NCBI GenBank assembly: GCA_028714335.1
Contig: JAQTMM010000010.1
Span: 1-40,931 of the forward strand
DNA: 40,931 bases
Reading direction: 5' to 3'
Origin: Dehalococcoidales bacterium
GTDB taxonomy: Bacteria > Chloroflexota > Dehalococcoidia > Dehalococcoidales > RBG-16-60-22
A program made the position numbers and the translations under genes. Below, one piece after another: positions 25,624 to 38,550 of this stretch (position 1 is its first letter; the number at the start of each line of letters is the position of its first letter). The notes beneath the pieces were generated by a model. That model made no database searches. It was not told where the DNA came from and worked only from the letters and a program-made list of their open reading frames with translations.

Positions 25624-25631
25624 AAACTAAA

Positions 25632-25888
25632 GGCTGTGACGGAGAAGAGTAGGGGCGGCAACGAGTATCCAGCGAGTCTGGCAAGGTGGAAGCAGATATA
25701 CTCCCCGCTTTGAAAATCCCTCCCGAGCCTCCGGCTGAAAACCTTGAATGAGTAAGCCCGGACGGACCCGTCAACCGTTAACCGTGACGAGGGCATCAAA
25801 GGTGTCCTTAAAGAGTGCCCCGTTTTTTGGGGAATTTGGGTGGTACCGCGGAGCTTTAAGCCTCGTCCCTTAGAGACGAGGCTTTTTT
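25632..25888 (+). promoter_or_regulatory. T-box leader (isoleucine) controlling ileS
   Basis: A complete T-box element. Stem I base GGAG/CTCC, the AGTA loop-E side at 25648, the apical CCAGCGAGTCTGG...AAGGTGGAAGC region, and GAAAATC on the 3' side of the specifier loop, where ATC (25716-25718) is the likely Ile codon. CGTTA at 25776 fits the stem II region. GGGTGGTACCGCGG (25838-25851) is the antiterminator T-box, followed by a terminator. Uncharged tRNA-Ile should stabilise the antiterminator and raise ileS expression. The specifier reading is by eye; one A more than usual separates GAA and ATC. Confidence 0.93.
25858..25888 (+). terminator. T-box regulated terminator before ileS
   Basis: AAGCCTCGTC and GACGAGGCTT form a 10-bp stem with a 7-nt loop and a T run. 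The 5' arm lies 6 nt past the T-box sequence, so antiterminator and terminator are mutually exclusive. Confidence 0.93.
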
Positions 25889-25907: not shown

Positions 25908-28900
25908 ATGTTTAAACCAGTCAATAACCGGGTGGACTTTCCTAAGCAGGAAGAAGACATCTTAAAGTTTTGGAAAGACAACACGATTTTTGAAAAAAGC
26001 GTGGACGCGCGTAAAGACGGCAAGCGCTTTGTCTTTTACGAGGGGCCTCCCTTCGCTAACGGCAACCCGGGCATTCACCATGTGCTGGCGCGCGCGATAA
26101 AAGACGTCATCGTACGCTACAAAACAATGAAGGGCTATTACATCCCCCGCATCGCCGGGTGGGATACGCATGGCCTTCCCGTCGAGCTGGAAGTAGAAAG
26201 ACAGCTCGGTTTTAGCGGCAAGGACCAGATAGAAAAGTACGGTGTCGAGGAGTTTAATAAAAAGTGCCGCGAGAGCGTTTTTAAGTACCTCAAAGAATGG
26301 AACTTTATGACCGAACGTATCGGTTACTGGGTTGACCTCGACCACGCTTATAAAACGATGGACAACACCTATGTGGAATCGGTGTGGTGGGCGCTAAAGC
26401 AAATCTGGGACAAAGGGCTAGTTTACCAGGGCTACCGCGTCACCCCGCATTGCCCGCGCTGCGGTACGTCGTTAAGCTCCCACGAGGTTTCGCAGGGTTA
26501 TAAGGACGATACTGAAGACCCGTCGGTTTACATAAAGTTCAGAGTGGTGAAAGAGGCTAAAGCCAAGTTGCCCACTAATAAACCGGTCTATCTTTTAGCC
26601 TGGACGACTACTCCCTGGACACTGCCGGGCAACACCGCGTTAGCCGTTGCGCCGGACGCTGAATACGTCTTGTTGGAAGGCGAAAACGGCTATCTCATCT
26701 TGGCGGCGCGGCTGGCAGGGACGCTGGATTTAAAAGATTATCAAGAGGTCAAAAAGTTAAACGGAAAAGAACTCGTTGGCACGGAATACCAGCCGTTGTA
26801 CAACCCGCACGAATTTGGTGTTGAAAGGCTAAAGTTCCATCATGACGGAACATTAACCGCCCAAAAGGAAAGCAAAGACCTGACCTATAAAGTCATCGGC
26901 GGCGACTTTGTCACTATGGAGGACGGTACGGGCATCGTGCATGTCGCCCCCGCTTTTGGCGAGGTGGACTTTAACGCCGGTAAAGAGCTGGGTTTAAGTT
27001 TTGTCCAGCAGGTTGATTTGCAGGGTAAAATTACCGGTAATTATTCCTTCGCCGGTAAGTTCGTAAAAGCCGCCGACCCGCTTATCATGGATGACCTTCA
27101 AGAGCGAGGGCTGCTTTTACACTCCGGTACGATAAAACATACCTATCCATTCTGCTGGCGTTGCGACGCCCCATTGCTTTATTACGCCAAGACAACATGG
27201 TACATCAAGACCACCGCAATTAAAGATAAAATGATTGCCGGCAACGAGACTATCAACTGGTACCCGGAACACATCAAGAAAGGGCGCTTTGGCAACTGGT
27301 TGGAAAACAATGTTGACTGGGCTTTTGCCCGCGAGCGATACTGGGGCTCGCCCCTGCCTATCTGGAAGTGCGAAAAGTGCGGCGCTTTTGAGTGCGTCGG
27401 CTCGATTGAAGAACTGGAGAAAAAACCAGGCTGCCAGGGCATAAAATCACCCATCGATTTACATCGCCCCTATATGGACGAGGTGACCTTTAACTGCGGC
27501 AAATGCGGCGGCAAGATGCAGCGTACGCCGGAGGTAATGGACTGCTGGTTCGATTCCGGCTCGATGCCTTTTGCCCAGACGCATTACCCCTTTGAAAATA
27601 AGGAATTGTTCGATAAAGAAACCGGCCAGGCGGACTTCATCTCCGAGGCCGTAGACCAAACGCGCGGCTGGTTCTATAGCCTCCACGCCATCTCCACCTT
27701 GCTTTTCGGCCGGCCTATTTTTAAGAACTGCATCTGCCTGGAACTGATACTGGACACCAAGGGCAAGAAGATGAGCAAAAGCAAAGGCAATGTCGTTGAC
27801 CCGATAGAGGTAATTCAAAAACACGGCGCCGACGCCCTGCGCTGGTATAACTATACTTCTTCACCGCCCGGCGCCGTCCGCCGCTTTGACGTTAAGATGG
27901 TGGCGGAGATAAATCGCCAGCTGCTGATGACGCTGTGGAACGTCTATTCCTTCTTTGTCATGTACGCCAACATCGACCACTACCAGCCGGCGGATTCATT
28001 CCCGCCGCCCTCCACCGAACTGGATAAATGGATTCTCTCCGAGCTTAACCAGCTCGTCGCCGATTGCGATAACCTGCTGGAAAACTACAACTACACCGAC
28101 GCCGGGCGCAAGATAGAGACCTTTGTGGACGGGCTTTCCAACTGGTACGTCCGCCGCAGCCGACGGCGCTTTTGGAAGAGTGAAAACGACGAGGATAAAC
28201 TCTCGGCGTACAACTCACTCTATACCTGCCTGGTGACGCTGGCAAAACTGCTCGCTCCCTATACTCCCTTCCTCGCCGAAGAGATGTATCAGAACCTGGT
28301 GCGTGAGGTCAAACAAGATGCGCCGTTAAGCGTCCACCTGGAGGACTTCCCCGTCGCCGATACGAGCCTGATTGACAAGCAGTTGAGCGATGATAATCGC
28401 CTGGCGATGAAAGTCTGTAGCCTGGGCAGGGCGGCGCGCAATAAGTGCGGTCTTAAAATCCGCCAGCCGTTGGAAACCCTCTACGTTAGCGTCACTAACG
28501 AATTTGAGGCGCGCGCTTTAGAGAGGGTTGCCCCGCTGATTTTGGAAGAGCTGAACATCAAAGAGTTGAAAACCGAAACGCTGGAAAAGGTCGGCGGTTT
28601 GGAGGTTGCCAACTTCAGCACAGTGACCGAGATGGGTACCTGTGTGAGTATCTCCACCTATATCACTATTGAACTTCAAGCAGAAGGCATCGCACGGGAG
28701 ATTATTCACCGCCTGCAAACCATGCGCCGTAATGCCGGTTATGAGATAGCCGACCATATCAAAATCTACCATGACGCTGACGCTTACTTTATTCAGGCAA
28801 TTTCCGGCTTTACCGACTATATCCGGCAGGAAACCCTCGCCGACGATATTGAAGACGACATCCCGGAAGATGTTGACCTGAAAGAGGAACACAAGATAGG

Positions 28901-28940
28901 CGGCTACCACCTGAACCTGGCGGTAAAAAAGGTGAAATAA
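25908..28940 (+). CDS. ileS: Isoleucyl-tRNA synthetase, type-2-like, with GIHH signature
   Basis: A 1010-residue class I synthetase that charges tRNA-Ile. The active-site motif expected as HxGH (PxHxGH) reads PGIHH at 54-58, with the first His and the Gly swapped. KMSKS is normal (GKKMSKSKGNVVDP). The editing domain contains LAWTTTPWTLPGNTALAV. The length and the SPPGAVRRFD region fit the eukaryote-like IleRS2 group. That group tolerates mupirocin, and I recall a GxHH subgroup described as hyper-resistant. GGGGG precedes the ATG. It is regulated by the upstream Ile T-box and ends at a bidirectional terminator. Confidence 0.97.
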   Translation: MFKPVNNRVDFPKQEEDILKFWKDNTIFEKSVDARKDGKRFVFYEGPPFANGNPGIHHVLARAIKDVIVRYKTMKGYYIPRIAGWDTHGLPVELEVERQLGFSGKDQIEKYGVEEFNKKCRESVFKYLKEWNFMTERIGYWVDLDHAYKTMDNTYVESVWWALKQIWDKGLVYQGYRVTPHCPRCGTSLSSHEVSQGYKDDTEDPSVYIKFRVVKEAKAKLPTNKPVYLLAWTTTPWTLPGNTALAVAPDAEYVLLEGENGYLILAARLAGTLDLKDYQEVKKLNGKELVGTEYQPLYNPHEFGVERLKFHHDGTLTAQKESKDLTYKVIGGDFVTMEDGTGIVHVAPAFGEVDFNAGKELGLSFVQQVDLQGKITGNYSFAGKFVKAADPLIMDDLQERGLLLHSGTIKHTYPFCWRCDAPLLYYAKTTWYIKTTAIKDKMIAGNETINWYPEHIKKGRFGNWLENNVDWAFARERYWGSPLPIWKCEKCGAFECVGSIEELEKKPGCQGIKSPIDLHRPYMDEVTFNCGKCGGKMQRTPEVMDCWFDSGSMPFAQTHYPFENKELFDKETGQADFISEAVDQTRGWFYSLHAISTLLFGRPIFKNCICLELILDTKGKKMSKSKGNVVDPIEVIQKHGADALRWYNYTSSPPGAVRRFDVKMVAEINRQLLMTLWNVYSFFVMYANIDHYQPADSFPPPSTELDKWILSELNQLVADCDNLLENYNYTDAGRKIETFVDGLSNWYVRRSRRRFWKSENDEDKLSAYNSLYTCLVTLAKLLAPYTPFLAEEMYQNLVREVKQDAPLSVHLEDFPVADTSLIDKQLSDDNRLAMKVCSLGRAARNKCGLKIRQPLETLYVSVTNEFEARALERVAPLILEELNIKELKTETLEKVGGLEVANFSTVTEMGTCVSISTYITIELQAEGIAREIIHRLQTMRRNAGYEIADHIKIYHDADAYFIQAISGFTDYIRQETLADDIEDDIPEDVDLKEEHKIGGYHLNLAVKKVK

Positions 28941-38145: not shown

Positions 38146-38181
38146 ATAAAAAACCCCCGTCCCATAAAAGGGGCGGAGGTT
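38146..38181 (-). terminator. T-box regulated terminator before trpE
   Basis: On the minus strand AACCTCCGCCCC and GGGACGGGGGTT pair over 12 positions with one mismatch, around a TTTTAT loop, followed by TTTTTT. It follows the T-box sequence directly. Confidence 0.9.
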
Positions 38182-38225
38182 ATAGCTTCCGCGGTGCCAC
38201 CCTAATTATCCTTCTACTATAAAGA

Positions 38226-38249
38226 CCTTGTCCTGAGCGAAGTCGAAGG
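38226..38249. repeat. Dispersed 24-bp repeat, copy near the antiterminator
   Basis: CCTTGTCCTGAGCGAAGTCGAAGG, matching the two tandem copies at 38371-38418 at most positions. It lies between the CGTTAAC element and the antiterminator of the Trp T-box. Confidence 0.85.
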
Positions 38250-38370
38250 ATATCTCTGCGAGTACAGCCTGCCCGCCGGAACTTCAGTGTAGGCGGGTCT
38301 TAAACGATACCCCGGGCTCTGTTAACGCTGCCCTTGCGTCAAAGCCTACTACCCATAACTTGCTCGAACG

Positions 38371-38418
38371 ACTTGTCCCGAGCGTGGTCGAAGGACTTGT
38401 CTCGAGCGTGGTCGAGGG
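38371..38418. repeat. Two tandem 24-bp dispersed repeats inside the Trp T-box
   Basis: ACTTGTCCCGAGCGTGGTCGAAGG is followed directly by ACTTGTCTCGAGCGTGGTCGAGGG (two differences). They lie between stem I and the CGTTAAC element. A partial unit (ACTTGCTCGAACG) precedes them. Confidence 0.88.
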
Positions 38419-38550
38419 ATTCGGTTTGCGGCTCCCAGGTCCATTCAGTTCTAGCGTTGGCGTCGGACTCACACCTTACCCGACTCTCTGAAGCCCCGCT
38501 TTAGGACTTACTACTCCTGTTCACAGCCTTTACATAATTCAGTTGTATCT

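Follow-up and report, generated by a model that had tools for sequence, protein, structure and literature searches.

The ileS locus and its product

The window, which is the whole stretch of 40,931 nucleotides that was analysed, carries the isoleucyl-tRNA synthetase (IleRS) gene of a Dehalococcoidia bacterium in the setting yidC-jag-ileS. The gene, its leader and the motifs of its product are located as follows:

25627-25873, + strand: T-box leader (RF00230) of ileS; cmscan, 103.1 bits
25861-25890, + strand: strong hairpin and T run (GCCTCGTCCCTTAGAGACGAGGCTTTTTT) that form the terminator of the T-box switch; read from the sequence, with the hairpin present in the predicted fold
25908-28940, + strand: ileS, type 2 isoleucyl-tRNA synthetase, 1010 aa; TIGR00392 (978 bits), PF00133, Anticodon_1 and DUF5915
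26070-26081, + strand: swapped class I signature GIHH, residues 55-58; translation and alignments
26604-26627, + strand: CP1 editing-domain motif TTTPWTLP, residues 233-240; unchanged or almost unchanged across 26 relatives
27582-27596, + strand: HYPFE, motif of eukaryotic and eukaryote-like (type 2) IleRS, residues 559-563; defined in PMC4861432
27735-27755, + strand: CLELILD strand before KMSKS, with Glu in place of the Gly (CLG[HL]) of most relatives; alignment
27768-27782, + strand: KMSKS, residues 621-625; translation

The reading frame is translated without interruption and includes YEGPPFANGNPGIHHVLARAIKDV, while the GIHH signature sits within PPFANGNPGIHH. A sequence-only reading of this DNA had placed an exchange of the first His and the Gly of the HxGH signature between 26050 and 26090, and the translation bears this out (G55-I56-H57-H58). 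In alignments with structures of the Protein Data Bank, GIHH coincides with HVGH of the Thermus thermophilus (1ile) and Priestia megaterium type 2 enzymes and with GVHH of an engineered P. megaterium variant (8c8w); His residues in HxGH arrangement elsewhere, which would have spoken against the exchange, were looked for and none were found at the aligned signature position. The same reading had described KMSKS and the editing domain as intact, and both are, since the editing domain also keeps HVAPAFGEVDF. Its view that PHYGH is the normal type 2 form has to be narrowed, as the alignment assigns PHYGH to just one subgroup, the others having PHVGH, PHIGH or PGxHH. In the predicted structure, helix 56-74 begins at GIHH, which occupies the tip of the first catalytic helix.

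Control by a T-box leader

The leader of ileS combines a match to RF00230, an isoleucine specifier (AUC at 25716-25718, within GAAAAUC) and a terminator, in agreement with the earlier suggestion that the gene has its own isoleucine T-box; the T-box sequence GGTGGTACCGCG starts at 25839. Leaders were read in eight relatives, of which seven (L007, L008, L009, L013, L014, L018 and L051) have AUC in the corresponding position; in the eighth, L022, a plain string search did not locate it. The overall z-score of the RNA fold is -0.93, by itself not significant, and the T-box is therefore accepted on the covariance-model match and the conserved specifier, not on RNA folding alone. Expression of ileS is controlled by an isoleucine-specific T-box, which reads uncharged tRNA-Ile.

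A second T-box lies at 38166-38533 on the - strand, before trpE or an operon containing it, with GAAUGGA as its Trp specifier region. A 2008 survey reported three T-boxes in Dehalococcoides, before ileS, trpE and a trpB-like gene (PMC2494555). The window, from the same phylum, likewise has T-boxes before ileS and trp genes, here on a single contig and separated by about 12.5 kb; the T-box account of that survey comes without discussion of the IleRS motif.

Assignment to type 2

Sequence scores, the C-terminal domain, the HYPFE motif, the tree and a fold comparison all assign the window enzyme to type 2. Its matches to type 2 structures reach 949 bits (1ile) and 914 bits (8c8w), against 346 (1ffy) and 343 (8c9f) for type 1. 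DUF5915 occupies the C-terminus, where zf-FPG_IleRS (PF06827) is absent and no Cys4 zinc cluster is present, with three Cys in total after residue 830. As regards the motifs that distinguish the IleRS types (HYPFE, Tyr-59, NKIL and SSL; PMC4861432), HYPFE is present, NKIL and SSL of type 1 are absent, and Phe stands where the Escherichia coli enzyme has Tyr-59. The AlphaFold model has a mean pLDDT of 81 and a pTM of 0.71, and is less certain around the active site, where several blocks have pLDDT values of 40-70. Its full-length fold match is the P. megaterium IleRS2 (8c8v, 8c8w; TM 0.87), ahead of type 1 enzymes.

The swapped signature and the published G/AXHH group

The sequence-only reading referred to published work on an IleRS2 subgroup with this swap and very strong mupirocin resistance, and such a group exists: Brkic et al. 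(2023) described the G/AXHH motif, in which the first residue of HIGH is Gly or Ala and the third is His, in 86 of the 163 bacterial IleRS2 of their tree, about half of them, and mentioned Chloroflexi in an early IleRS2 branch (PMC10485003). The motif is tied there to hyper-resistance, with mupirocin Ki values in the millimolar range (6.6 mM for the ALHH enzyme of Deinococcus radiodurans), and motif swaps made in both directions in three IleRS2 changed inhibition roughly 175- to 820-fold. The same authors solved the structure of a swapped enzyme (8c8w), and in the mechanism that they propose, a shift of the helix tip allows the third His to take over catalysis and to collide with mupirocin; natural and engineered G/AXHH enzymes are active, and the catalytic cost is small (PMC10485003).

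G55-I56-H57-H58 fits this definition. Like the window enzyme, the members of the group (D. radiodurans ALHH, Streptomyces griseus and the engineered P. megaterium GVHH of 8c8w) have positions 1 and 3 of HxGH exchanged, possess KMSKS, share the same fold and serve as sole housekeeping enzymes. Its best matches in sequence and fold, the IleRS2 of T. thermophilus (1ile) and P. megaterium (8c8v), differ from it in having the canonical HVGH and mupirocin Ki values of 0.2-1 µM. By analogy with the published group, the window enzyme is likely to be insensitive to mupirocin.

The window sublineage departs from the published group in having Phe, not Thr, at position 49 and Glu in place of Gly before KMSKS. 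The substituted Gly precedes the adenine-stacking residue. CLEL is found in L007, L008, L010 and L051, which belong to this sublineage, and separately in L022; it lies outside the published mutants, so that an exact Ki is not transferable to the window enzyme. Glu for Gly recurs in unrelated IleRS2 (L072, L073 and L152) whatever the state of the HIGH motif. A coupling of the swap to the residues before KMSKS was considered and rejected, as changes there accompany both motif states.

Distribution and inheritance

In Dehalococcoidia, including anaerobic and marine groups, GxHH is the class norm. A DNA pattern for it matched 157 of 195 genomes of the class, a figure close to a lower bound because the pattern is rigid, and all 25 genomes of the window's order, among which are the window's own genome and one other member of its family. 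The first 100 motif-bearing frames of the fetched loci comprised 96 with GxHH, three with HxGH and one with AxHH, a tally in which the window's genome (L001, L087) and some species occur twice; a second genome with AxHH, L066, emerged from a later alignment. With a stricter pattern, 82 of 251 genomes across the phylum gave matches, a few of these being evident chance hits. The sequence-only reading had remarked that exposure to mupirocin is not obvious in a probably anaerobic lineage; the surprise implied in this is not supported, because the motif is the default of the class and common in the phylum.

The other family member sampled (G442) gave two GxHH pattern matches on different contigs, C38:6112 and C54:185. 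This could mean that the genome has a second ileS, that strains vary or that the assembly is split.

As a search for canonical HxGH in the class, a rigid DNA pattern matched six genomes, but these PYVNGxPHLGH matches resemble MetRS and were set aside. The pattern misses HYGH, and protein alignment revealed an HYGH IleRS in one genome (G014, locus L164) of the family group that gave the MetRS-like matches.

In a quick tree of the LG+G4 kind, the window enzyme groups with L007 (starred) and L008 and nests among the GxHH enzymes of Dehalococcoidia. Seven changes between the canonical and swapped states were counted on the 52-row tree; a long-branch warning at the join of type 1 and ValRS has no bearing on the placement of the window. 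GxHH is vertically inherited within the class.

Explanation of the swap

We are nearly certain that ileS of the window encodes the housekeeping type 2 IleRS of a Dehalococcoidia bacterium and a member of the published G/AXHH group. The enzyme is a new member of that group and otherwise ordinary, the swap itself having been known since 2023. As the one IleRS found in the genome, with its other motifs intact and the swap shared by relatives, it is probably catalytically competent. With it the documented swap extends to a further lineage, and the analysis shows an entire bacterial class in which the swapped form is the default. This has a mild bearing on the idea that exposure to mupirocin drove the swap.

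Why the swap exists is a separate matter. It may have been fixed in the class for reasons other than mupirocin, either as a near-neutral catalytic alternative or through selection by another natural product that binds IleRS, with resistance as a by-product; we give this a little under an even chance, and it is compatible with the housekeeping G/AXHH reading. It draws on the near-universality of GxHH across groundwater, marine SAR202, thermal Tepidiforma and Dehalococcoides lineages, on the small published catalytic cost and on the lack of polyketide genes among the 20 window ORFs scanned, whereas PMC10485003 connects the motif with hyper-resistance and makes a case for selection by antibiotics. 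Since GxHH is class-wide, from groundwater to ocean and hot springs, a recent episode of mupirocin selection in this genome is not needed as an explanation, and ancient selection is compatible with the data. A drug-biosynthesis setting was considered and rejected, with neither polyketide nor related genes among the same 20 ORFs. More tentatively still, GxHH could have been fixed at or near the base of Dehalococcoidia as an alternative mode of catalysis without mupirocin selection, the window sublineage having further exchanged the adenine-pocket Gly for Glu; if so, the class would offer natural material in which catalysis and drug evasion can be told apart.

It is very improbable that the window enzyme is a resistance copy in addition to a separate housekeeping IleRS1, the arrangement of some Bacillaceae and of staphylococci with mupA plasmids, even if type 2 enzymes do exist as second copies (PMC10485003). 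The isoleucine T-box and the yidC-jag-ileS setting stand against it, as does copy number: a search for a second copy found one IleRS in the 1.74-Mb genome, as the sequence-only reading had supposed, in an assembly that is 88.8% complete and from which another could be missing, and six near relatives have one each, in one case split across two contigs. The remaining PF00133 matches of the genome score far lower and resemble related class I synthetases. A single PF06827 match (C53) was considered as a second IleRS and rejected, its 275-aa frame being read as Fpg-type from its size and finger.

Loss of function or an assembly artefact at the HIGH motif, suggested by the fact that few positions in class I synthetases are as conserved as the Gly and the first His of HxGH, is refuted by the same residues in about 100 relatives with intact frames and by the activity of natural and engineered G/AXHH enzymes (PMC10485003), and GIHH is shared by independent genomes (for example L007, 84% identity, and L008, 73%), so that it is neither a sequencing error nor chance.

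Other IleRS variants in the phylum

Other Chloroflexota classes have a distinct IleRS with GPITANNPMGVHH, found by pattern in 67 of 201 Chloroflexota genomes. In this clade (L157, L159 and L166-L175), DGPITANNPMGVHHAWGR occurs together with a change of KMSKS to xMHKS, in which the first Lys is lost and Ser is replaced by His, while the editing motifs are kept; the 12 aligned examples have xMHKS or close variants along with GVHH, and both class I signatures are therefore altered. Two genomes (G284 and G336) have an xMHKS IleRS alongside a GIHH/KMSKS IleRS2. A possible identity for it is the minor GXHH clade already described; in PMC10485003, the passages on KMSKS do not mention a change of this kind, and 'MHKS' paired with tRNA synthetase was not found in the literature searched.

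Among the close relatives of the window, L009:880-3912 (71%) and L066:4001-6481 (67%) have ALHH and KMSKR. The flanks of ALHH are altered as well, to DGPATVNGSPALHH and DGPPTLNGNPALHH in L009 and L066, whereas their tree neighbours keep EGPP[FT]ANGxPGIHH.
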